Assembly (NCBI GenBank): GCA_017521805.1
Contig: JAFXDK010000051.1
Span: 52,469 to 116,468, forward strand
From: Ruminococcus sp.
GTDB lineage: Bacteria; Bacillota; Clostridia; Oscillospirales; Ruminococcaceae
DNA: 64,000 nt
Direction: 5' to 3'
Below, piece after piece: positions 598-15,467 of the stretch. How positions within the stretch are numbered: the stretch's first letter is position 1; every line of letters begins with the position of its first letter. The notes beneath the pieces are model-generated. The model ran no database searches. It saw nothing but the letters and a program-made list of their open reading frames with translations, and was not told the origin of the DNA. The translations under genes were made by a program, and so were the position numbers.

Positions 598-2100
598 ATG
601 AAAAAATCTTCAAAACGATATATTTCGGCGACAGTTGCGGCATTATCGCTTATTTCCGCCACATCCTGCGGCACAGTAGTACAGACTGTAAGTTCTCCGT
701 CGGTACATACAGGAATGCTTTCAAAAGGCGAAACTATCAGCACAACAACAGCGGCTGAATCTATAATAACTGAAGATGTGACGGTTACAACAGCAATGGA
801 AGCCGCAACAGAAACAGGAACAAAGCCAGCTGTATCAAATAAAGTTATGCGCGGTAATCTTTACGATGCAGATGGCGATATTCTTATGTTCAGTCAGTCT
901 GACAGCAGCGGCAAAGAAGTGCGCATGACAAACGACAGCAATAAGGTTGCTTTTGCAAATGTGCTCAATGAAATGTCTGAGGGAATAGATTTAACTCTTG
1001 ATAAAACTCTGAGAACGCCAAATCCCACAGTAGTTGAGGGCGGTGAATACGGGCAGAGCGTTCAGCTTACTTTTGACGCTGATGTGCAGAATGCGATATA
1101 CGATTATATGGCAAGCCAGAATATGAATGGCTGTGCTGTTGTAATGAGAAGCGACGGTTCACTTATGGCACAGGTATCGTACCCCTCATATGACCCCGAT
1201 GTATATTATGGTGTTGAAACTGAGGAGGATTTAGCATGGGGAACATACGGAAACAAGGCATTTCAGAATTTTCCACCCGGCTCATGCTTTAAGATAATGT
1301 CGGAGGTGCTTGCGGATAAGCACGGTATATATTCGTTGTACGACGAGGGGGAATGGTTTTTTGACGGTGTATCAATCGTAAACTGGGACCACGATACAAA
1401 CGGCGGATATCCTATGCAGAGAAGCCTTTATTCTGCATTTGTAAATTCAAGCAATATATATTTTGCAAGAGCCTTTGACCAGATAGGCAAGGACGCAGTT
1501 CTTGAAGATTTAGATACCATATTCCATTTTGGTACAGATATCGAATGTGATTTCGGTGTTCTGGGAAATAATATTGAGATATACTGCAACGACGATTTGC
1601 GACGTACAGCATTTGGTCAGTCCTATGTCATGACTTGTCCGATTTATCTCGCGGCTCTTGGACGTGAAGCGGCATACGGTGATATGGTAAGACCTTTTAT
1701 CGTGAAAAATATAGTTGATACAACCGACTTCAACACTGTAGTTGAAGCAGGTTCAAAATCCAATGAAGTAATCGGAAGTATACCTGTAGAGTGCAGACAG
1801 AATCTTCTTGACGGAATGAGCGGTGTTGCAAGCGGACTTGGTATATCAGTTCCCGCAGGCTATGAATTCTACGCTAAAACTGGAACTGCTGAAACATGGG
1901 AAAATGATTTTCTTTATATTACAGGAATACTGAAAAACACAGCAGATGACGGAAACGGCGTATATACAGACTATAACGACTACAACGGTTCATACATTAT
2001 AGTAATACAGGTGAGAAATCCTGCATATTTTGGTTATAGCTATGCCAGCGAATCAGCGGCACTATATCAGGGTATAGTAAATGCTGTTGTAAACAACTGA
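598..2100 (+). CDS. Penicillin-binding transpeptidase-domain lipoprotein
   Basis: 500 aa. The start at 598 is set by the promoter just upstream and an AGGGGG Shine-Dalgarno. The N-terminus is a lipoprotein signal (lipobox near Cys24), followed by a Thr/Ala/Glu-rich linker to about residue 110. The rest is a transpeptidase domain with the three penicillin-binding motifs in order: SCFK (catalytic Ser about 229, Lys about 232), SSN (about 284-286) and KTGT (about 427). The family acylates on this Ser to cross-link peptidoglycan stems outside the membrane. There is no transglycosylase domain and no obvious long PBP-dimer domain, so it resembles short PbpA-like class B enzymes rather than FtsI. 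Anchoring by lipid instead of a transmembrane helix is less usual. A vanZ-family gene follows 19 nt downstream, probably in the same transcript. Confidence 0.85.
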   Translation: MKKSSKRYISATVAALSLISATSCGTVVQTVSSPSVHTGMLSKGETISTTTAAESIITEDVTVTTAMEAATETGTKPAVSNKVMRGNLYDADGDILMFSQSDSSGKEVRMTNDSNKVAFANVLNEMSEGIDLTLDKTLRTPNPTVVEGGEYGQSVQLTFDADVQNAIYDYMASQNMNGCAVVMRSDGSLMAQVSYPSYDPDVYYGVETEEDLAWGTYGNKAFQNFPPGSCFKIMSEVLADKHGIYSLYDEGEWFFDGVSIVNWDHDTNGGYPMQRSLYSAFVNSSNIYFARAFDQIGKDAVLEDLDTIFHFGTDIECDFGVLGNNIEIYCNDDLRRTAFGQSYVMTCPIYLAALGREAAYGDMVRPFIVKNIVDTTDFNTVVEAGSKSNEVIGSIPVECRQNLLDGMSGVASGLGISVPAGYEFYAKTGTAETWENDFLYITGILKNTADDGNGVYTDYNDYNGSYIIVIQVRNPAYFGYSYASESAALYQGIVNAVVNN

Positions 2101-2119
2101 CACAATTATCGGAGAGAAT

Positions 2120-2548
2120 ATGAGGAAAAAAACTGACAATTCAAAAGAGGAAAGACAGCCTGTTCTTATATGTGTATTGATGATATACTTTTTTGTGGTG
2201 ATGTATATTACATTATTCAACAGGGAAATCGGAGTACGTCGGTCGATGCTTGAGCCATTTTTTGAAATAAAGAGTATGATTGATACAAAGAGATATCAAT
2301 ACTGGCTTGGGCAGATATTCGGGAATTTGATAATGCTTTTTCCATTGGGAGTACTTTTGCCCATGATATCCGACTGGTTTGAAAAAACAAAAAGGACAGC
2401 ATTGGCAGGATTGACAGTTTCTCTCTTTATTGAGCTTACTCAGTTCATCACAGGCAGAGGCTTATGTGAGCTTGACGATATAGTACACAATACAATAGGA
2501 GCGATTGCTGGAATACTTGTATACAAAAAAATATCTTTGTTTCAATAA
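2120..2548 (+). CDS. VanZ-family membrane protein
   Basis: 142 aa with about four hydrophobic helices and a short charged N-terminus. The C-terminal half has the VanZ pattern: FGNLIMLFPLGVLLP, then IELTQFITGRGLCELDDIVHNTIGA. The TGRG, DD and NT.G residues are the family's conserved core. VanZ proteins are integral membrane proteins of uncertain biochemistry, first seen in teicoplanin-resistance clusters but widespread in Firmicutes. The gene starts 19 nt after the penicillin-binding lipoprotein with its own GGAGAG site, and a strong hairpin follows, so the two genes probably form a bicistronic unit. There is no van ligase context here, so a resistance role should not be assumed. Confidence 0.85.
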   Translation: MRKKTDNSKEERQPVLICVLMIYFFVVMYITLFNREIGVRRSMLEPFFEIKSMIDTKRYQYWLGQIFGNLIMLFPLGVLLPMISDWFEKTKRTALAGLTVSLFIELTQFITGRGLCELDDIVHNTIGAIAGILVYKKISLFQ

Positions 2549-2554
2549 AATAAG

Positions 2555-2598
2555 AAAAAAGGAAATACCCAGGATTGATCACGGGTATTTCCTTTTTT
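2555..2598. terminator. Bidirectional intrinsic terminator
   Basis: A perfect 10-bp stem (2561-2570 with 2583-2592) is flanked by A6 on the left and T6 on the right. It serves the convergent vanZ-like and TraB-family genes. Confidence 0.9.
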
Positions 2599-2601
2599 GT
2601 T

Positions 2602-3723
2602 TTATGAAACCTTTTCTACAGTGTAACCCATACCTTCAAGAAGGTTATCTACACCATTTTCGCCTGAATAATGTGCAGCACCAACCATGTAGAAACAGTT
2701 TTTGCCCTCTTTAAGATACTGAGAAGCCTTTTCAGCCATATTCTGATTGCGGTCGTCCAGCATGAGCTTAACATAAGCCTCATGGTCATCCTTGATATCT
2801 TCAGGGAGCTTATCAACATCAACATCGGAATCAAAATCAAGTTCACCGTCGCCTACAGCCCAGCCGTTGTAAAGCTCAGCATAGGATTCAGCGAATTCGT
2901 CAATATCGTCCATGCTGTCGATAACTTCGCTGATAGTGTAATCTGCATAATCATCAGAGTAAGCATTAAGAGCACCTGTCTGAGTAGCAAGGTCTTCGAT
3001 GTTGATAATCTCTTTGCCGTCCTCCTGCGCGAGGCCGATGAAGTATGCATCAGTACCTGAAAGCTGCATATTCTCAAGGCGGAGGAGCATTACTGATGTA
3101 AGCTGATTAATCCAATAACCTGTTGTATACTGGTCGAGCATTTCGCTGTATGCGCCGATGCTCTCAAAATAAGCCTTAGCCTTTTCATAAGTTTCAGCGG
3201 AGATATGTTCCTTAACAGTAGAACCGTCGCTATAAATCATGCCGTTTACGTATTCAAGCTGAGCGTTTGCGTCTGTTGTAATCGCTGTGATATCGTATTC
3301 TACAGCAATAGAATCAGCATTGTTGTAAATCTCCATGATATCAGCAGGATATTCTGTGATACTTGCAGGGAGCATATGAATAGTACCTAAGAGATGAATA
3401 GTATTGCCTGTTGCAGGGTCTGTAACTTTCCAGAGAGGAGGGTTAATATCTGTTGTAGTGATAAACTCGTTGATATCAGCAGTTGCACCGAACAGAGCTT
3501 CAATATCTACTTCACCCTCAGCTACAGTTGCCTCTTCAGCAGCCTCAGTTGTTTCGACAGATTCTGTTACAGTTGTAGTTTCAGCAGCTTCTGTTACAGC
3601 TGTAGTTTCAGCAGTTTTATCAGAAGTGTTGTTTTCATTTGCAGTGTCTTTCTTTTCGCAGGAAACGAAAGAGAGTGTCATTGCCACAGCCATAACAGCA
3701 GCTGTAATTTTTCTTGTTTTCAT
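2602..3723 (-). CDS. TraB/GumN-family lipoprotein
   Basis: 373 aa. A lipoprotein signal ends at lipobox SFVSC (Cys22). A low-complexity Thr/Ala/Glu/Val linker runs to about residue 70. The remainder is a TraB/GumN domain: PPLWKVTD at the start, LLGTIHMLP (GTIH about 113-116), and a C-terminal GAAHYSGENGVDNLLEGMGY block. The GxxH motifs at both ends are the family hallmark and relate it to the TIKI/EreA-type fold, for which metalloprotease activity has been shown in some members. The substrate here is unknown. It is transcribed alone and converges on the vanZ-like gene. Confidence 0.85.
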   Translation of the reverse strand: MKTRKITAAVMAVAMTLSFVSCEKKDTANENNTSDKTAETTAVTEAAETTTVTESVETTEAAEEATVAEGEVDIEALFGATADINEFITTTDINPPLWKVTDPATGNTIHLLGTIHMLPASITEYPADIMEIYNNADSIAVEYDITAITTDANAQLEYVNGMIYSDGSTVKEHISAETYEKAKAYFESIGAYSEMLDQYTTGYWINQLTSVMLLRLENMQLSGTDAYFIGLAQEDGKEIINIEDLATQTGALNAYSDDYADYTISEVIDSMDDIDEFAESYAELYNGWAVGDGELDFDSDVDVDKLPEDIKDDHEAYVKLMLDDRNQNMAEKASQYLKEGKNCFYMVGAAHYSGENGVDNLLEGMGYTVEKVS

Positions 3724-3778
3724 AAAAAATAATCCCTTTCTGTGAGATATATCATTGAGAATTTTTTCACAATCTCAC

Positions 3779-3807
3779 AATATATATTTTAGCATGTTAA
3801 TAGACAA
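3779..3807 (-). promoter_or_regulatory. Probable promoter of the TraB-family gene
   Basis: On the reverse strand TTGTCT (3802-3807) and TATATT (3779-3784) are separated by 17 nt, about 55 nt upstream of the start. Confidence 0.5.
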
Positions 3808-3912
3808 AAATCAATATGAGTGGTTGAATTTTCACAGTTCTATCAAAATATTTGTATGTATAACTAAATTGATTAAACTTTCAACTATACTTTTTAAAAA
3901 CCAAAAATTATT

Positions 3913-3941
3913 TTGACATTTTATGATGAAAGTGGTATAAT
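3913..3941 (+). promoter_or_regulatory. Sigma-A promoter of the unknown membrane protein
   Basis: Perfect TTGACA (3913-3918) and TATAAT (3936-3941), 17-nt spacer, with a GAGGGAG site and ATG just downstream. Confidence 0.85.
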
Positions 3942-3970
3942 ATATATATTACATATGAGGGAGAAAATCA

Positions 3971-5722
3971 ATGAAATTATTTTCAATAATTTTTCTGATA
4001 TTCAGTATTATACTTGAAGTTTTGGCGTTTGTGTTATTTGTACTTGTATTTATTGCAGATGTAGTGGAGAATAGTGCTTCAGACTGGATTTTGTTTCTGG
4101 CGATAGCCCTTATACCACTGTTATGGACACTTATTTCCGCTGTAACTCTGAAAAGAGTAATAAACGGCAGAGTTAAGGTAATACCTGCGGCAATACTTAT
4201 GAAGCTTACAGTACTCTTGTTGCTGAGTGCAGCAGCATTTCTTTCATTAGAAGACGGAATATATGCGGCGAGCCTTTTCGCCATTACAGGTTTATTTTGC
4301 GGATTCAGTGCATTTGCAGCCACAAGACTGCGCAATATAACATCTGCACCGGGAATTCCTGAAAGATATCAGTTCAAGGGATATAACGCAGGAAATCATT
4401 GGTATTTCGCCGCTGTGGAGTATCTTCATAAAAACAACAGGAATATTTCAGAGCTTGCGTATATGATACGTAATGCCGCAATGAGAAATACTCAAAATGA
4501 TGAAAGTCAATCAGGCGGACTTACTTTTGATGAGAAAAACAAAATTACAGAATACGCTTGTATGCCCTTTGTGTATCTTCTGCAATGGCTTATAGAAAAT
4601 AATCACATGAGCGAATTTTTTATGAAGAAATTCAAAGCTGATGATATAGCGAATGTGAAAAGTGGTTTTATACCTACAATGTATTTTTTCAAAAATGCCA
4701 TGCAGTGCAGAATTGACAGGTGGGATATCAGCGAGAAAATACATAATTTTCTTATCTGGTATTATGAGCCATTTACAAATGCAGGCTGTTATCGCCGTAT
4801 AAATGAAGCGTATCTGTTTGATTATTGCAGCATAATCCAGAGCAAAGGCGCTGATTTGTATTGCTGTGATTACCATTATGATATCTACAGAGAGCTTAAA
4901 GAAAAATTCGACAGAAAATATGAGGAATACCTTGAATTTGTTGAAAGGGACAGGAAATTTGTCTCAGAGTATAACAAAACAGGTGCAACGCTGAATTGGA
5001 TGCTTTTTGATAAGAACCTTGAAATATATGCAAATCATGAACTTACGCCAGAGGAAATTGAAAATTGTGAATACGCCCTGAACGGTTTATATGACAGGCA
5101 GATAAAACAGCTTGAACGCATGATAGTCAGAAAAATGACATTGAGTACACCTGTTGATTTTCGAAGTGATATTATACCTGAATCCGTACATATTCATAAA
5201 GCCGAAAATAATGATGTTTATTTCTCCGTAGGCTGCGGTATATCAATTGACGAATACAAGATTATCGGATTTACTGTAAAAAATGGTGTTATTGTAAATA
5301 TGACATACGATTATGAATTTGATATGCCATACTGCAATTATGAAAATGAACGATATGAACTCGGAAACAATGATATAGATTTCCTGTCTCTTACCAATCA
5401 GAGCACTGTCGATGAATTATGTGAGCGCGGAGAACTGGAAATTGTGGAAATAAAAATCGAGGGTATGCAGATGAACAACGACAATGGACGCGGAAATATA
5501 ATATATCTGACTCCTGCCGCTGCAAAAATTTTCAATGAGAATATTCGCAGATTAAATATTCTCAATAAAGCTCATTTAATAAATGATGTAAATATTTCGT
5601 GCAGCAGATGTGAAAACAGCATAGTTCCGCAGGCAATATATTTTGCAGGAATTATAAAAAACACTGAAAATCCGCAGGAAAAAGAAACCTACAGATACAG
5701 CGACTTGCTTGTTGTGTGGTAA
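3971..5722 (+). CDS. Unknown protein: four N-terminal membrane helices plus large soluble domain
   Basis: 583 aa; I do not recognise the family. Residues 1-120 hold four hydrophobic segments (about 5-30, 38-57, 70-92 and 95-112). A cytosolic-looking domain of about 460 residues follows. It is rich in Tyr, Asn and charged residues; the part around 125-330 looks helical and includes paired Cys near 302-303. A later part (about 400-500) looks beta-rich, with FSVGCGISIDEYKIIGF and VNMTYDYEFDMPYCNY. There is a CSRCEN Cys pair near residue 543. It has its own consensus promoter and appears monocistronic. No neighbour suggests a role. Confidence refers to this being a real gene. Confidence 0.8.
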   Translation: MKLFSIIFLIFSIILEVLAFVLFVLVFIADVVENSASDWILFLAIALIPLLWTLISAVTLKRVINGRVKVIPAAILMKLTVLLLLSAAAFLSLEDGIYAASLFAITGLFCGFSAFAATRLRNITSAPGIPERYQFKGYNAGNHWYFAAVEYLHKNNRNISELAYMIRNAAMRNTQNDESQSGGLTFDEKNKITEYACMPFVYLLQWLIENNHMSEFFMKKFKADDIANVKSGFIPTMYFFKNAMQCRIDRWDISEKIHNFLIWYYEPFTNAGCYRRINEAYLFDYCSIIQSKGADLYCCDYHYDIYRELKEKFDRKYEEYLEFVERDRKFVSEYNKTGATLNWMLFDKNLEIYANHELTPEEIENCEYALNGLYDRQIKQLERMIVRKMTLSTPVDFRSDIIPESVHIHKAENNDVYFSVGCGISIDEYKIIGFTVKNGVIVNMTYDYEFDMPYCNYENERYELGNNDIDFLSLTNQSTVDELCERGELEIVEIKIEGMQMNNDNGRGNIIYLTPAAAKIFNENIRRLNILNKAHLINDVNISCSRCENSIVPQAIYFAGIIKNTENPQEKETYRYSDLLVVW

Positions 5723-5926: not shown

Positions 5927-7813
5927 TTATTCAATAAGTCCGAATCCCCAGATTGTAAAGCTGCCGCTTCCCGAGATAGAAACGTTAAGCTCTCCGGAGG
6001 TTTCCTGATAGTAGCCCAGTTCTGCGTCGGGACCGCCCCAGCAGTACTGCTTGTTTCCGCTGATTTTTGTTGTCTTGCCGTTTACGGTTACATCTATGCT
6101 GCCCATTCCCGAGCTGTTAGCCTTGAATACCACAATAAAGCCCTTGCCGCTAGCAGTAAATGTCATAGGACTTCCGCCATTGAGGTTGTAGGAGTAGGGG
6201 AGTGCTGAGCCGCCATAGCCGCTGCCTGCTGTCCATGAGCCTGCGTTGAAGTTTGTGAGAGTTTTTGGGTCAACATTTTTGCAGGTTTGATATTCTGTAC
6301 CGTATACTGTAGAAGTCGGAACAGTATATGATTCAGAACGATTTTCTGTTTTCATAGCCTTGCGGAAGAAGTAACCGAGACAATCTGCAATAAGCTGACC
6401 GCCATTATCGTGAGGGTGATATTCATCGGAGAAGTAATCTCCCTTGCCGAGGAATCCGCTGTTGAACGCCTTTGTAAGAGCGTTATCCATGCTGATTATC
6501 GGGATATCGAAATTTTCTCCTACAGGTATCATCTGCTTCTGGCTTGAGAAGCCGCCCTGAGCACGATTTATGAGTATCACAACAGCTGGCTCATTGGGTA
6601 AATCGAGGAATTTCTTGATAACACTTTCAAAGCATTTCTTGTACATGATATCCTCGTGGTCGTTTACGGAAAATTCAATGAATACGATATCGGGATTCTT
6701 TTCAACGATATTGCTTTCACTTCTTACAAGTCCGACAACGGAGGAAGTTCCCGAAAGACCAGCATTAACCTCTGTGAATCCGCCTGTTGCAAATGTCGAT
6801 TTAACATAATTTGAAAACGGAGTTGAATACTTCTTACCCTCAGTAATAGAACCGCCGAGATAAGCCATTGTAAGCTTTTCGCCGTTTTCCGCAGCTTCAA
6901 GCTTCTTTGTAAGGCGGTATGTATTGCCCATGCTGTAAATTGAACTTTCGTAGAAGTCAATCCACTGAGAAGTCGCTGTTTCTGTATAATCGTCCCATTT
7001 ATTGTCGGGCTTAGGGGGTTCGTTGAAAGTAAATTCGGAAATTTTACCCAAGAGGTACTGTTCAAGCTGAACTGCGTCTGCAATTTCAATAGTGCCGTTT
7101 TTGTCAACATCGGCAGATTTTTCATAGAATTTATTATCAAGTCCCTTTGTCAGCGCCTGACGCATAAGAATCATGTCAAACACATCAATTGTACCATCAC
7201 AGTCTACATCACCGGGTGAAACAACAAGAGGCTTTGCGCCGCTGATTTCAGTGCCAGAGGGAGCCGCAACAGCCTCGTCAATATAAAAGCTTGTTTCTGT
7301 ATCTATTGTTTCAACGTATATTATAAGGTTAGATGCATCCTCGGGGATTGTATAGGCTTTATTTGTAAGCTGTACCCACTGTCCTGACGAAACTTTTGCT
7401 GTGGCAATTTCGCCGTAAGCAGTTGTGCTTTCGGGGGTTGTGTACTGCAATGTAAGCTTGAATTCTTCGGTAGATGCACCTCTTTCGTACATAGCGTTTA
7501 CACTGAAACTATAAGTTTCCCCTGCCTTAAAAACGGTGGAATCAAGCTCTTTGGAAACGCCGTTCCATGAAGCTGTTCTTCCGCTGCAATAAAGGGATGC
7601 TCTACCCTCGTAGGCGGCAAGTTGATTTTTTTCAGCGGCCGCTTCACCTCTACCTGTCCAGCCGTTTGTGTCGGATTCAAAGTTGTCGTTGAAGTAATAG
7701 TGGTTTTCTGCGGCAGAAATACTGAGGATATCTGCTGTCAGCATTGGTACGGAAGCTGACATAGTGAGGACTACGGCGGTTCCGACGCTTGTGAGTCTTT
7801 TTCTCAGAAACAT
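5927..7813 (-). CDS. Secreted SGNH/GDSL carbohydrate esterase with CBM22-like module and type I dockerin
   Basis: 628 aa. A signal peptide (about 1-34) is followed by a beta-sandwich module (about 37-190). Its NFESDTNGWTGRG opening and ASWNGVSKELD block resemble CBM22 xylan-binding modules. Residues about 199-260 are a type I dockerin with two calcium-loop repeats, GDVDCDGTIDVFD and ADVDKNGTIEIAD. The SGNH hydrolase (about 313-480) has GGSIT (nucleophile about Ser322), FSVND (Asn384) and DEYHP (Asp463, His466). A C-terminal beta-rich region of about 130 residues is not assigned. The order implies cell export, docking on a cohesin scaffoldin, and deacylation of a polysaccharide, with xylan the best guess from the CBM. 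The dockerin lies between the binding and catalytic modules rather than at an end. ATG has a GGAGG site. Confidence 0.85.
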   Translation of the reverse strand: MFLRKRLTSVGTAVVLTMSASVPMLTADILSISAAENHYYFNDNFESDTNGWTGRGEAAAEKNQLAAYEGRASLYCSGRTASWNGVSKELDSTVFKAGETYSFSVNAMYERGASTEEFKLTLQYTTPESTTAYGEIATAKVSSGQWVQLTNKAYTIPEDASNLIIYVETIDTETSFYIDEAVAAPSGTEISGAKPLVVSPGDVDCDGTIDVFDMILMRQALTKGLDNKFYEKSADVDKNGTIEIADAVQLEQYLLGKISEFTFNEPPKPDNKWDDYTETATSQWIDFYESSIYSMGNTYRLTKKLEAAENGEKLTMAYLGGSITEGKKYSTPFSNYVKSTFATGGFTEVNAGLSGTSSVVGLVRSESNIVEKNPDIVFIEFSVNDHEDIMYKKCFESVIKKFLDLPNEPAVVILINRAQGGFSSQKQMIPVGENFDIPIISMDNALTKAFNSGFLGKGDYFSDEYHPHDNGGQLIADCLGYFFRKAMKTENRSESYTVPTSTVYGTEYQTCKNVDPKTLTNFNAGSWTAGSGYGGSALPYSYNLNGGSPMTFTASGKGFIVVFKANSSGMGSIDVTVNGKTTKISGNKQYCWGGPDAELGYYQETSGELNVSISGSGSFTIWGFGLIE

Positions 7814-8015
7814 AATTTTTCCTCCTTAAATATATTTTTTCAGCTAAATTGTATTAATTTCGATTATACTATATATTAAATATACTACAATTTTTAAGGA
7901 TTGTAAATGTGATGTTGTTCGAATCGCAATATATGATTGAATAATAGCAATAAATGATAAGTTTTGGCGATATAATATCTGTGTTACTTAAATGATAATT
8001 TGCAGAAAGTTAATT

Positions 8016-8063
8016 AAACAGCGTTTATTAAACCATCACAAACAGTGTTTATTAAATCATCAC
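8016..8063 (+). repeat. Two tandem 24-bp repeats immediately upstream of a promoter
   Basis: Units 8016-8039 and 8040-8063 differ at 2 of 24 positions and share a GTTTATTAAA core. The second ends 7 bp before the -35 box at 8071, a position suited to an activator or UP-type element. Confidence 0.8.
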
Positions 8064-8070
8064 AAATACC

Positions 8071-8099
8071 TTGACAAAATGAAAAAAATAATGTATAAT
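8071..8099 (+). promoter_or_regulatory. Sigma-A promoter of the PAS-GAF-GGDEF gene
   Basis: Perfect TTGACA (8071-8076) and TATAAT (8094-8099) with a 17-nt spacer. It excludes the long open-frame extension back to 7992. Confidence 0.88.
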
Positions 8100-8129
8100 C
8101 TATATATAAACTGTACTGGGGGTGTGATA

Positions 8130-9464
8130 ATGAAAAAAATATGGAATTTTTTTAACACATTGAATGAGTTTGTCTATATATGTGATTTGGAAACGGACGA
8201 GCTTATTTACATGAACGACAGAACTCTTAAAACATACGGTCTTAATTCCCGAGAGGAAATGCAGGGAAAAAAATGTTACGAGATACTTCATAATAGTTCA
8301 ACAAGGTGTAAGAACTGTATTAATAATAAGCTTACAAAAGGTGAATTTGTGGAGAGTAAGTTTTATAATCCACGTGTGAAAAAGCATCTGCTTACAAAGG
8401 ATACAATTGTTGAGTATAAGGATAAGCTTTATCGCCTTAATATTTCAATTGATGTCAGTGAGCAGGAAAAATACAATCAGGCTGTAAGAAAGTATGAAAA
8501 TCTTGAAGCAACTGTGAATGAGGCAATTCGGACGGCTATGCAGGCACATAATCCTGATAAGGCTATAGATATTGTTCTTGAATATCTTGGCAAGACTCTT
8601 GATGGTGAAAGAACATATGTATTTGAAAAAAATGAAATGAATTGCGACAACAATACATATGAGTGGGTTGCAAAGGGTGTAAAGCCCTCTATTGATATGC
8701 TACAGAATGTGCCTCCCGAAGTATGTGAGGACTGGTACAACTCTTTTGATAACGGTAAGCCCATTGTAATTGAGGATATCGAGGAAATAAAGGAGAAAAA
8801 TTTTCAGCAGTATGAAACGCTGAAAATACAGAATATAAATTCCATTGTTGTTGTTCCGTTGATACACGAGGATAAGGTAATAGGATTCTATGGCGTTGAT
8901 AATCCTCCTATTCACGATATGAATTACGTGGAAAATATGTTGAAAATTACAGGATATTTTATAGTGTCCCAGATTAAGACCCGCAATCTTATACATGAGC
9001 TTCATGATATGAGTTATCGTGACCAGCTTACAAAAATTGGCAATAGACACGCTATGAGAAAGTATGTTAAGGATATGAACAAATCCAGAAGTATCGGCGT
9101 AGTTTACTGCGATATCACAGGTTTGAAGCGCGTCAACGACAATGAGGGACACGCCGCAGGAGATGCTCTGATAAAAATGTGCTGTTCATTTGTAGATGAG
9201 TTTTATAATGACTATGGCGTTTTCCGTATCGGCGGAGATGAAATTCTTGCCCTTTGTTCCTGTATCAGCAGAGAGGAATTCAAGGCGCGTGAAAAGCATT
9301 TCAAAGATGCTATAGCAGAGCGGAATATCCCTCTTGCTGTTGGATTTTCATGGCAGAAAACAAGTGATGAAAGCATCGGAGAAATTCTGCACGAGGCTGA
9401 AATGGCGATGTATGCGGATAAAGCGGCATTTTACAAGGCTTCAGGTATTGAGAGAAGAAGATGA
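8130..9464 (+). CDS. PAS-GAF-GGDEF diguanylate cyclase
   Basis: 444 aa from the ATG at 8130, chosen because the consensus promoter lies at 8071-8099 and a GGGGGTG site precedes it. Residues about 5-105 look like a PAS sensor domain (YICDLETDELIYMNDRTLKTYG), with two paired Cys motifs, KKCYE and CKNC. Residues about 120-275 look like GAF (ERTYVFEKNE, SIVVVPLIHEDKVIGFYGVDNP). The C-terminal GGDEF domain starts at YRDQLTKIGNRHAM and has DITGLKRVNDNEGHAAGDAL and a GGDEI signature at about 368-372. The Asp and Glu needed for GTP and metal are present, so cyclic di-GMP synthesis is likely. The usual RxxD inhibitory site before the signature is not visible. It has no membrane segment and is probably cytosolic. 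Confidence 0.88.
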   Translation: MKKIWNFFNTLNEFVYICDLETDELIYMNDRTLKTYGLNSREEMQGKKCYEILHNSSTRCKNCINNKLTKGEFVESKFYNPRVKKHLLTKDTIVEYKDKLYRLNISIDVSEQEKYNQAVRKYENLEATVNEAIRTAMQAHNPDKAIDIVLEYLGKTLDGERTYVFEKNEMNCDNNTYEWVAKGVKPSIDMLQNVPPEVCEDWYNSFDNGKPIVIEDIEEIKEKNFQQYETLKIQNINSIVVVPLIHEDKVIGFYGVDNPPIHDMNYVENMLKITGYFIVSQIKTRNLIHELHDMSYRDQLTKIGNRHAMRKYVKDMNKSRSIGVVYCDITGLKRVNDNEGHAAGDALIKMCCSFVDEFYNDYGVFRIGGDEILALCSCISREEFKAREKHFKDAIAERNIPLAVGFSWQKTSDESIGEILHEAEMAMYADKAAFYKASGIERRR

Positions 9465-9564: not shown

Positions 9565-9804
9565 TTATAATTTATTATGGAATGTACGGGAAATTACATC
9601 GTCCTGCTGTTCCTTTGTAAGCTTTACAAAGTTTACAGCATAACCCGATACTCTTACAGTAAGCTGAGGATATTTCTCAGGATGTGCCTGAGCGTCAAGG
9701 AGCGTTTCCTTTGTAAATACGTTTACATTGAGGTGATGTCCGCCTTTTTCAACGTATCCGTCCAGTAATTCGATGAGATTATCAATCTGATTCTGATTTT
9801 CCAT
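9565..9804 (-). CDS. Stand-alone glycyl-radical domain of pyruvate formate-lyase
   Basis: 79 aa. It corresponds to the C-terminal domain of pyruvate formate-lyase, including [18 protein letters not shown], the HPEKYPQLT strand and the radical loop RVSGYAV, with the radical-bearing Gly about residue 54. It ends with [10 protein letters not shown] as in PflB. The upstream large subunit stops where this domain would normally begin, so this protein would have to insert its loop in trans to make an active enzyme. The Shine-Dalgarno (AGGAGG) lies inside the end of the preceding small gene and the start is 2 nt past that gene's stop, implying translational coupling. It resembles free-standing GrcA/YfiD, but here it looks obligatory rather than a repair part. 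No activating enzyme gene is in the window. Confidence 0.88.
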
Positions 9805-9806
9805 AC

Positions 9807-10004
9807 TTATTCCTCCTGTTCGTCATCAATAGCGTTTTCGGTTGGCTGACAACAAGCGCCTTTTCCACAATATTCGGCACTTTTTATCACATTAACGGTC
9901 ATATCATCTTCGGAATTTACAATAACATTTACATGACCGCTGCCCTCTGACATAAGGGAATCTATGAGCTCTGCAAGCTCCTGTGGGTTCTGAGGGTTAT
10001 TCAT
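9807..10004 (-). CDS. Small Cys-rich protein between the two pfl parts
   Basis: 65 aa from ATG 10004, the codon with correct spacing to GAGGA; the large subunit's TGA (10006-10008) is just upstream, so the two are coupled. Its middle, [21 protein letters not shown], looks like the start of the glycyl-radical protein ([22 protein letters not shown]), although the radical loop RVSGY is absent. The C-terminal half contains EYCGKGACC and an acidic tail. I know of no described function. A degenerate paralogue, assembly or protection factor of the split enzyme is inferred only from position and this similarity. Confidence 0.75.
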
Positions 10005-10005
10005 A

Positions 10006-12075
10006 TCATTCCTCATTTCTCAGTTTGTCAAGGTCGATATCGCCGACAAATAGCTGCATATCCTTACCCAATGCGTCGGGGATAATTGAAAATGTGTTGG
10101 AAATACCGTCCTGAGCCTGTCGGAATGGGAGCTTTGCAACTGAGGCAAGGGAAGCTGCTGCACCGTGAGTATCTCTGCCATGCATAGGATTTGCGCCGGG
10201 AGCAAGGGGGATACCCATTTTTCTGCCGTCAGGAGTGTTGCCTGTTTTCTTGCCGTACACAACGTTGGAAGTGATTGTAAGGATTGACATTGTAGGTACG
10301 CCGTCACGGTAGGTATGGTGCTTTCTTATGCAGTCCATAAACTTGCGGACAATGGAAACGGCAATTTCATCAACGCGGTCATCGTTGTTGCCGTATTTGG
10401 GGAAATCACCCTCAACCTCGTAATCGGTAACAATGCCGTCATCATCTCGGATAACCTTAACTTTTGCATATTTTATAGCGGAAAGGGAATCTGCAACAAC
10501 TGAAAGACCTGCGATACCTGTAGCGAAATAACGCTTTACATCTCTGTCGTGGAGTGCCATTTGAAGCCTTTCATAGCTGTATTTATCGTGCATGAAGTGG
10601 ATTACATTAAGTGTATTTACATAAAGTCCTGCAAGCCATTCCATCATGGCTTCATACTTGTCCATTACATCATCATAGTCGAGGTAGTCACCCTCAACTG
10701 CACGGAATTTAGGACCAACCTGAACTTTCATTCTTTCATCAATTCCGCCGTTTATAGCGTAAAGGAGACATTTTGCAAGGTTTGCTCTTGCGCCGAAGAA
10801 TTGCATTTCCTTGCCTACTCTCATAGAGGATACACAGCAGGCAATAGCGTAGTCGTCACCGTGAATAACACGCATCATATCGTCATTTTCGTACTGTATT
10901 GACGATGTTCTGATAGACATTTTAGCACAGTATTCCTTGAAATTTCTGGGCAGCTTCTTTGACCAGAGAACTGTCATGTTAGGCTCGGGTGCTGTTCCCA
11001 GATTATCGAGAGTGTGGAGATAACGGAAGCTTGTCTTTGTTACAAGGTGATGACCGTCAACGTCAACGCCGCCGATGGATTCTGTAATCCATGTGGGATC
11101 GCCTGAGAAAAGCTCGTTATATTCGGGGGTACGGGCAAATTTTACAATACGTAGCTTCATAATGAAGTGGTCGATAAGCTCCTGTGCCTGTTCTTCCGTA
11201 AGAATTCCTTTGTTGATATCACGCTGGAAATATATATCAAGGAATGTGGAGGTACGTCCCAGAGACATTGCCGCACCGTTCTGCTCCTTTACAGCGGCAA
11301 GATAACCGAAGTAAAGCCATTGTACAGCCTCTTTTGCTGTAGCGGCAGGGCGGGAAATATCGAATCCATAGATTCTGCCAAGCTCTTTCAGTTCTTCAAG
11401 GGCGCGCACCTGTTCTGCAAGTTCTTCGCGGAGACGGATATTCTTTGAAGTCATACGAACAAGTGAGGTATCAATCTGGTGCTTCTTATCGTTGATAAGC
11501 ATATCAATACCATAGAGGGCAACACGTCTGTAATCGCCGATAATACGTCCTCTGCCATAAGCGTCAGGGAGACCTGTAATAATTGCGGATTTTCTTGCAA
11601 GTCTCATTTCGGGAGTATATGCGTCAAATACTCCCTGATTATGTGTTTTCCTGTATTTTGTGAATATTTTTACTATTTCAGGGTTTACTTCATAACCATA
11701 CTGTGAGCAGGCATTCTGAGCCATGCGTATGCCGCCGAAAGGCTGAAGTGAACGTTTGAAAGGCTTGTCTGTCTGAAGTCCGACAATCTGTTCAAGATCT
11801 TTGTTGAGATAACCTGCATCGTGAGATGTGATAGTGGAAACAATATCTGTATCCATATCGAGAACTCCGCCGTTTTCACGCTCCATACGTGTAAGCTCCA
11901 TAATTTGTTCCCAGAGCTGTTTTGTAGCGACAGTAGGGGGAGCAAGGAAGCTTTCATCGCCGTCATAGGCGGTATAATTCTTCTTTATAAAATCACGGAC
12001 ATTTACAGTTGAAGACCAGCGTCCCTGATTGAATCCATCCCATTCCTTTGGGTATTCGTTAATTAAATGAAGCAT
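10006..12075 (-). CDS. pflB: Pyruvate formate-lyase large subunit lacking its glycyl-radical domain
   Basis: 689 aa. It follows PflB from the N-terminus ([12 protein letters not shown]) through the active-site pair IACCVS, with Cys413-Cys414 matching Cys418-Cys419 of E. coli, to [13 protein letters not shown]. It then ends 20 residues later instead of continuing about 70 residues into the radical domain. That domain is encoded two genes downstream. The family converts pyruvate and CoA to acetyl-CoA and formate in anaerobic fermentation, after a radical-SAM activase installs the glycyl radical. The ending is a clean stop with downstream Shine-Dalgarno sites and coupled starts, so it looks like a stable split rather than a recent frameshift. 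A consensus promoter lies 55-83 nt upstream. Confidence 0.93.
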
Positions 12076-12129: not shown

Positions 12130-12158
12130 ATTATAACATATTGTTCTGTGTATGTCAA
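12130..12158 (-). promoter_or_regulatory. Sigma-A promoter of the split pfl operon
   Basis: Reverse strand: TTGACA (12153-12158) and TATAAT (12130-12135), 17-nt spacer. A loose TTGTTA...TAATTA dyad just downstream could be a redox operator, but it does not match the Rex consensus well. Confidence 0.85.
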
Positions 12159-13700: not shown

Positions 13701-15467
13701 ATGGACAATGCAATTTACAGGATAGGCAGGGTTATAGTTGACAAAAGTCTCCACACCCAAAGCGGAAATGAGCTTTTTTTCAGCTACTTCGGAAACGATG
13801 TTACTTATTCTATCCGCCGTACTATTGATGATGAGGATTATCCAAGACTTGCTGAATGTATGGAAAAGGCAGAAGTGGGAGTTCCACAGCACACTGTTAT
13901 CCGTATGAAAGGCATAAACGGTCAGCTTCGCTGGATTCTTGCAGCAGTGCGTGTGCTGGAAAACAGTACAGAGCCTATGTATATCATTGATTTCAGCGAT
14001 GTTTTTTCCCTCAACCGTATTTCAGCGGAAAAAGAGCAGCTTATTTCGGAATACCGCTATATTATGAGCCTTTCCTCTGATATTGCCTTTGAATACAGCT
14101 TTGAAACCAGACGAATACGGATATATATGCAGGATTGCTGCCGAGAAAATATTCTTGTTGACGAGGAGCTCGAAAAATGGCGTGTCAGTTCTATTGAATC
14201 GGGTTGGATATTGTCTCGTTATATCGACACTTTCAACAGTCTTTGCCGCGATATAAAAAACGGAGTTTACCGCTTTGACTATGAGCTTGAATCCTCTATA
14301 CTCACACAGGGCAAAACGAGGGAAATGTGTCTTTTTCGCGGAATTACACGATTCAACGATCCGAAAACCCGTAAAGTCAGCGGTCTTATATCTGTTGTGA
14401 GTTCACGACAAAAATCAAAGGATATAAATCTTGCCATTGAAGCGAACAGGGATTCGCTTTCGGGACTTCTCAGCAAGCGCGCTGTAACCTCATATGCTAT
14501 GGAGCTTCTTGCGGAAAATCCGCGATGCAATGTGAACTTTGTAATACTTGATATTGACAATTTTACAGATATAAATGCCAATTACGGTCATCTTTTCGGT
14601 GACGAGGTGGTTTATACCGTTGCGGGAATTGTAAAAAACGAGCTTGGTACACGGGGAATTGCAGGACGAATCAGCGGAGGCGGCTTCCTTATAGTTATTG
14701 AAAATACCCGCGATGAAGAAGATTTACGAGGTATTCTTAGGGCTATCCGAACTAATACGGAGCTTTCGTTCAACGACCGTTTTGAAAATTTTCGTCTGAC
14801 TTGTTCAATGGGAATTTCCACATATCCCAAAGACAGCAAGGATTACGATGAGCTGTTCATGCAGGCGGATAAAGCGCTGTATATCGCACAGCAAAAAGGA
14901 CAGAACAGATACGTTATATACGACATAGAAAAACATGGTAAAGTTGAACGTGATATTGAAAATAAGATTGCGTATCTCAGCGGAAACAAGGATTCCAACG
15001 ATAAGCTTACATTTGCCGCAAATCTTTCGGAAAGTCTGGTATACGGAAGAATCCCCGATATATCTGTACTTCTGGAGCAGATACGCTCCGCATTTGATAT
15101 TGATGATATATGCGTATTTGCAGGAAATGACATGAGCCTTATACTCAGCTGCGGTAATGCCTCCAGCAGAAATGCGGCATATCTTCTTGAAAACAGCTAT
15201 ACGGAGCGTTTTTCTGGGGACGGTTTGTTTGCCATTGACAATGTAAACGAGCTGGAGGGGCGCGACGACAGGGCGTTTGAACAGCTTACTTCGGAGAATG
15301 TCGGTGGTGCGGTGCAGTATCTGATGACCGATGAAAGCATGATTAAGGGTGTGATTTCTTTCTGTTATATCGGCAGATTCAAAAAATGGGCGGTATCAGA
15401 TATGAATTATTTTGCGATTCTTGGCAGGGTTATAACCTCTATACTTAAAAAGCAGGCGTTTATATAA
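13701..15467 (+). CDS. PAS-GGDEF protein with degenerate catalytic signature
   Basis: 588 aa. Residues about 20-110 and about 115-230 look like two PAS-type folds. A GGDEF domain (about 255-410) starts at NRDSLSGLLSKRAVTSYAMELL and keeps DIDNFTDINANYGHLFGDEVV and a MGISTYPKDSKDYDELFMQADKALY tail. The signature itself reads SGGGF (about 325-329) instead of GGDEF, so the metal-binding Asp and catalytic Glu are both gone. The C-terminal 170 residues look GAF-like. From family knowledge this domain should not make cyclic di-GMP; it may bind GTP or serve as a scaffold or receptor. No membrane segment is seen. Its promoter and AAAGGAGG site support the start. Confidence 0.85.
   Translation: MDNAIYRIGRVIVDKSLHTQSGNELFFSYFGNDVTYSIRRTIDDEDYPRLAECMEKAEVGVPQHTVIRMKGINGQLRWILAAVRVLENSTEPMYIIDFSDVFSLNRISAEKEQLISEYRYIMSLSSDIAFEYSFETRRIRIYMQDCCRENILVDEELEKWRVSSIESGWILSRYIDTFNSLCRDIKNGVYRFDYELESSILTQGKTREMCLFRGITRFNDPKTRKVSGLISVVSSRQKSKDINLAIEANRDSLSGLLSKRAVTSYAMELLAENPRCNVNFVILDIDNFTDINANYGHLFGDEVVYTVAGIVKNELGTRGIAGRISGGGFLIVIENTRDEEDLRGILRAIRTNTELSFNDRFENFRLTCSMGISTYPKDSKDYDELFMQADKALYIAQQKGQNRYVIYDIEKHGKVERDIENKIAYLSGNKDSNDKLTFAANLSESLVYGRIPDISVLLEQIRSAFDIDDICVFAGNDMSLILSCGNASSRNAAYLLENSYTERFSGDGLFAIDNVNELEGRDDRAFEQLTSENVGGAVQYLMTDESMIKGVISFCYIGRFKKWAVSDMNYFAILGRVITSILKKQAFI

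Follow-up and report, generated by a model that had tools for sequence, protein, structure and literature searches.

Pyruvate formate-lyase (PFL) is a central enzyme of anaerobic fermentation, and oxygen inactivates it at the radical glycine. PflA makes the glycyl radical at the RVSGYAV motif, from where the radical passes to the catalytic cysteine pair. A glycyl-radical domain also exists as a stand-alone protein, GrcA or YfiD, which the first-pass annotation of the DNA discussed here took to act only for damaged enzyme. For E. coli that restriction is too narrow, as a strain with GrcA and a PflB G734A variant that oxygen does not cleave shows intermediate formate production (PMC12338860, in the part of the article available). 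A further family, GrcA3, is already curated and named in NCBIfam. In addition, the PDB contains two truncated relatives, 38la and 38lb, both entered as 'Formate acetyltransferase', which are the best matches of the core protein described below (1137 and 1113 bits, respectively). With these entries in existence the split to be described is not wholly unknown, and others know at least part of it. A search for work on GrcA3, GrcA2 and split or two-component PFL surfaced no paper, preprints and most subscription journals being outside its scope. The first-pass view of a split enzyme was correct as to the split itself and incomplete in that the family already had a name and truncated chains were in the PDB.

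The locus lies in a 64,000-nucleotide stretch of Ruminococcus sp. DNA, the whole of which is here called the window. Three genes follow one another head to tail on the minus strand in the order core, middle and radical (Table 1). They are tightly coupled, since the core stop reads TGA-T-ATG into the probable start of the middle gene at 10004, and the spacer before the radical gene, with its Shine-Dalgarno-like AGGAGG, holds the TAA of the middle gene. The ATG at 10004, just past the core TGA, is the likelier middle-gene start. The promoter-like site upstream of the core gene is the sole 12/12 match among 10 such sites, where shuffled sequences gave 7.5 +/- 3.0 sites, and is regarded as a candidate promoter on the strength of a consensus match rather than proof. 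The PFL operon and its neighbour are flanked by what we take to be two GGDEF-like regulators (7992-9464 and 13701-15467, both on the plus strand). A presumably secreted protein with an apparent dockerin repeat pair and a GDSL-type hydrolase part is encoded at 5927-7813 on the minus strand.

Table 1. Features of the split PFL locus, in positions of the window.
Feature	Position	Strand	Remarks
PFL catalytic core	10006..12075	(-)	689 aa, without glycyl-radical domain, split-type tail
Catalytic Cys pair of core	C413-C414, codons 10839-10834	(-)	IACCVSS at 411-417
Middle protein	9807..10016	(-)	69 aa as called; 65 aa if start is ATG at 10004
GrcA3, stand-alone glycyl-radical subunit	9565..9804	(-)	79 aa, RVSGYAV, no Cys
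Predicted radical Gly54 of GrcA3	codon 9645-9643	(-)	
Sigma-70-type promoter-like site upstream of core gene	12130..12158	(-)	TTGACA-17-TATAAT, TG before second hexamer

The core matches positions 1-664 of the 744 in TIGR01255 with 1123.5 bits (cut-off 994.2), and positions 665-744 are absent from its chain and encoded by a separate gene. Of the 106 positions of Pfam Gly_radical, the core covers only 2-49 and the small radical protein 50-106, the latter including the RVSGYAV loop, so the small protein does carry the missing domain, as first annotated. At 167.3 bits it clears the cut-off of NCBIfam NF038360 (GrcA3), which is 158, and so belongs to that family. When placed on E. coli PFL (1h16), the core aligns to residue 679 and GrcA3 from residue 683. 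The core had been described as ending about 70 residues early; it is indeed truncated, but the alignment puts the missing part at about 80 residues. In its own genome (112 contigs, 90.7% complete) the window core is the one PF02901 match and the two PF01228 matches are both pieces of the window locus, and no intact PFL to accompany GrcA3 was found by these searches. A pflA gene scoring above cut-off is present on another contig, unlinked to the PFL locus.

GrcA3 scored above cut-off in 36 of 60 relatives, comprising 34/36 same-genus genomes (own included) together with G046 and G055, and the core-middle-radical order is kept in the window and in all 33 same-genus stretches fetched. Among 60 same-genus genomes, 56 have a TIGR01255 match and 53 hold core, middle gene and GrcA3 together; a middle-gene profile made from 16 of 79 members finds exactly these 53. 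The TIGR01255 search gave no PFL match in four of the 60 (G011, G022, G434 and G443), and two others show just the front of the core (G428) or just the radical gene (G429), in each case near a contig end. The 115 TIGR01255 matches listed for these genomes include a single one that spans positions 1-744. It belongs to G451 (L189; 81% complete), where it is the only PFL and has a core 64% identical to that of the window; the match list shows no GrcA3 gene for this genome. The full-length PFL could be either a replacement or contamination. Two sets of genes are held by G445, and G433 (7% contamination) has a second set with the core cut at a contig end, while a third match in G028, an 842-residue frame at 96.9 bits and below cut-off, was taken as another glycyl enzyme. 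The first-pass claim that the enzyme is stably split between genes, its radical glycine being carried by another protein, is borne out by this conservation and by the lack of a full-length PflB among the matches elsewhere in the window's genome.

Split enzymes often turn out to be artefactual, and a frameshift, an assembly error or a decaying pseudogene was considered. We give these explanations practically no weight, as the identical break with its intervening gene recurs in 53 of the 60 genomes, the core may stop at TAA, TGA or TAG with the radical gene in any of the three relative frames, and both small genes are under purifying selection. Taken from pairs with dS of 0.1-1.0 out of 561 same-genus locus pairs, the middle gene has a median dN/dS of 0.178 (20 pairs, maximum 0.442) and GrcA3 one of 0.048 (56 pairs). 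Readthrough of the core stop codon was also rejected on the use of all three stops and on the relative frames (49, 38 and 34 of 121).

A wider survey took in the window, stretches L034-L078 and L163-L183, and the best 80 of 574 named loci, giving 147 in total without L079, which is a more distant glycyl enzyme; 137 unique loci remained after 10 duplicates were dropped. The records not titled as MAGs include Ruminococcus sp. YE71, Beduini massiliensis GM1 and Lachnoclostridium sp. An118. In this set, of which the best 80 of 574 form part, 14 loci encode full-length PFLs and 123 are split. The split loci, again with the best 80 of 574 included, comprise 42 with at least two cysteines in the core tail and no middle gene, 80 with a linked middle gene (79 found by script and L144 by inspection) and one, L136, whose middle gene is unlinked. 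No cysteine occurs in the core tail of the 79 script-found middle-gene loci, and the two forms together were seen in none of the 123, both counts being for the survey with the best 80 of 574. A run of N hides the core end of L144, which was counted with the middle-gene group on account of its downstream middle gene, and another breaks the core of L064. At L136 (core 1148-3196, GrcA3 3992-4240) pflA takes the place of the middle gene and there is no cysteine tail; the unlinked middle gene of this genome (L196) scores 40.6 bits, the best of 5000 shuffles reaching 10.7.

A typical core tail is that of L118, FAGDIEIDLDCSNGACSSPTLFEGLD, and the spacing Cx4C is found in 35 of the 42 tail-type cores, cysteine spacing being variable otherwise. 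A tail motif marks 121 of the 122 split cores tested, the sole miss being the N-broken L064, and is present in 0/14 full-length PFLs. In the same survey (best 80 of 574 included) GrcA3 has R[VI]SGYAV in 121 of 121 cases and no cysteine in its core in 121 of 121, which rules out a disulfide between GrcA3 and the cysteine module. The pflA gene is within the fetched stretch in 41/42 tail-type and 24/79 middle-gene loci, but also in 14/14 full-length loci.

GrcA3 could instead be a spare part that repairs oxygen-cut PFL. NCBI calls it 'autonomous glycyl radical cofactor GrcA3', which suggests as much, and so does the role of YfiD in E. coli (PMC8683613, as far as the available text goes). We hold this to be very unlikely here. 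There is no intact PFL among the matches in the own genome, the one match in 115 that covers positions 1-744 is from a genome without a listed GrcA3 of its own, and throughout the 123 split loci (best 80 of 574 included; L064 and L144 with the N runs mentioned above) GrcA3 shares its locus with a core that has no radical domain. The term 'autonomous cofactor' is misleading for GrcA3.

The gene between core and GrcA3 had been correctly placed in the first-pass annotation but mentioned as a position only, and that it is a conserved part of the system was missed. By profile comparison its product is a mosaic. One-against-one hhalign comparisons match its N-half to that of GrcA3 (29 columns, probability 91.5%, E 9e-7) and its C-half to the core tails of other split PFLs (23 columns, probability 92.5%, E 5e-7), so that a half like the start of the radical domain is joined to a half like the cysteine tail. 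In the window protein the C-half carries the module C50-x4-C55-C56 followed by QPTE. The R[VI]SGY loop is absent from the aligned middle proteins and the cysteine module is found in its place; two of them, L135 and L159, are missing the first cysteine. The core cysteine tail was rejected as a homologue of the radical domain itself, as hhalign of the tails against GrcA3 gave nothing.

Searched genome-wide, a 20-member middle profile has the N-half of GrcA3 as its best match in 17 of 17 tail-type genomes. In 13 genomes with full-length PFL it matches the radical domain of the PFL itself in three and nothing at E 0.01 in ten. The only match besides these is a frame of 386 residues in G115 (E 0.005), and the search showed no middle gene in any of these 30 genomes. 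Neither Pfam nor NCBIfam yielded a dedicated family for the middle protein: among 20 diverse members of about 80, none matched Pfam and five matched in NCBIfam, in each case NF038360 only (best 2.5e-5). For the member in the window no NCBIfam match came up at E 0.01, and its weak hits to Pfam Ground-like (E 0.011) and to spike_base of NCBIfam (E 0.11) were rejected as below cut-off. Nor did an 8-member profile give a credible PDB match, its best hits, to a designed protein at E 0.016 and to troponin C at E 0.02 with poorer ones after them, being put down to chance.

Searches of 398 genomes from the phylum and 391 from the class found 22 stand-alone GrcA3 genes outside the order of the window's organism, all inside its class. 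Three of these (L206, L207 and L211) were counted as already seen, as their contigs agree in length with those of L149, L128 and L153, and 19 new loci were left. A cysteine module is present at 15 of the 19. It takes the form of a middle gene in nine (in L205 downstream of GrcA3, and in L225 with the core off the contig) and of at least two cysteines in the core tail in six, two of which, L210 and L213, have only a CC pair. Neither a middle gene nor a cysteine tail is found at the locus in L209, L218, L219 and L224, and L205, with its middle gene, shares a genus with L218 and L219. The module is common, not universal, and its universality was rejected as a rule.

In a tree of 60 cores, all split forms except L224 fall in one clade (100/99), and six full-length PFLs (L180-L183, L226 and L227) are nested inside this clade on supported branches. 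None of the six has a cysteine insert between core and radical domain, and they are candidates for natural re-fusions. The outlying core of L224 (genome G1021, 2942-4972 on the plus strand) ends in SLGKDD, with no tail. A single clade of all split forms was rejected with 60 rows (p-AU 1e-6) and was not rejected with 48 (p-AU 0.0506), the rows having been selected by us in both cases. Most simply, a single main fission and a single re-fusion in which the module was lost would account for this, with L224 arising by a fission of its own; repeated fission is the alternative. Changes between tail and middle forms number at least four among 35 split cores, and the well-supported independent pairs are two (p 0.5).

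We consider it highly probable that the locus encodes a natural multi-subunit PFL in which GrcA3 is charged by PflA and gives its radical in trans in every unit. The 689-residue chain would supply the barrel and the Cys413-Cys414 pair, and GrcA3 the final helix and barrel strand together with the radical loop. Gly54 of GrcA3 would be charged by the PflA of the genome, and the charged protein would dock on the core and hand its radical to the cysteine pair, in every catalytic unit and not just after oxygen damage. With the radical glycine on GrcA3, each working site should need docking in trans, and it is natural to infer that every molecule delivers the radical in this way. We also infer that binding, activation and catalysis would be effected in trans by GrcA3.

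A point against this reading is that when E. coli PFL is cut at residue 695, its binding of YfiD is too weak for ITC and activation is 32-fold lower, with normal activity once activated (PMC8683613, available part). It follows that an efficient split enzyme would have to possess a docking solution of its own, and the natural core ends even earlier than the engineered one. The tail motif of the split cores may be a new docking element. Because the N-halves of the middle protein and GrcA3 resemble each other, the middle protein probably docks where GrcA3 does, bringing a cysteine pair with it. It is a third part, inherited together with the other two, and in other lineages the same cysteine tail sits on the core.

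The function of the cysteine module is more speculative. The favoured reading, by analogy, is that its cysteines keep the exposed active-site cysteine pair reduced or capped while GrcA3 is absent. Class I ribonucleotide reductase (RNR) has a C-terminal cysteine pair, Cys754/Cys759, which re-reduces an active-site disulfide (PMC11143221, in its available portion); C50 and C55 of the window middle protein likewise stand four residues apart, in a Cx4C arrangement. Homology to the RNR tail was neither shown nor found, and a redox role for the module is a guess from this likeness. A fuller version, which we put forward tentatively and think rather unlikely as a whole, has two exchangeable cartridges for one groove. 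GrcA3 would bring the radical, and the middle protein, sharing its docking half, would carry a redox-active cysteine pair where GrcA3 has the radical loop, much like the mobile RNR tail. This dithiol cartridge would cap the site and keep the catalytic cysteines reduced when the oxygen-sensitive radical cartridge is lost or recharging, the same arm being on the core elsewhere.

It is also conceivable that the module binds a metal or an Fe-S cluster, or serves as an adaptor for PflA. The conserved cysteine pair, with Gly-Ala usually before the second cysteine, is in keeping with this, but most chains have two conserved cysteines, whose spacing ranges between 1 and 7, the first is lost from the two middle proteins noted above, and pflA is unlinked in the window's genome, and we regard such a role as unlikely. 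Thirdly, the middle protein might cap the second protomer of a PFL dimer and leave one protomer to take GrcA3, enforcing half-site use. The resemblance of its N-half to the docking part of GrcA3 would fit, as would the half-site behaviour reported for PFL in vitro; for E. coli, the in vivo evidence speaks against it (both points from the accessible part of PMC12338860), and tail-type systems do without a separate cap, which makes this explanation quite improbable. Retention of a reduced or capped active site is the reading that we continue to favour.

The lineage appears always to supply its radical as a small replaceable subunit, which would be a different answer to the oxygen problem of PFL. 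A natural two-part glycyl radical enzyme should allow biochemists to separate radical charging, docking and catalysis from one another. The co-inherited cysteine module, whether on the core or on a protein of its own, is a third part of which we found no description, and offers a concrete lead.

The truncated chain 38la ends in SLGKED, which the SLGKDD end of the L224 core resembles, and 38lb extends about 40 further, unaligned residues; these ends may be natural or may come from constructs. Neither chain is among the PDB matches of GrcA3 at E 0.001, and accordingly a radical domain is not seen in either. GrcA3 is like GrcA/YfiD (6owr) in being a stand-alone glycyl-radical domain with RVSGYAV, but it is shorter (79 against 127 residues) and shares its operon with a domain-less core, with no intact PFL found for it to repair. 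The window enzyme is like PflB (TIGR01255; E. coli 1h16) in its core sequence, its catalytic cysteine pair and the presence of PflA in the genome, and differs in a chain that stops at about residue 679 of 1h16, has no radical domain and bears the tail motif of the split cores.
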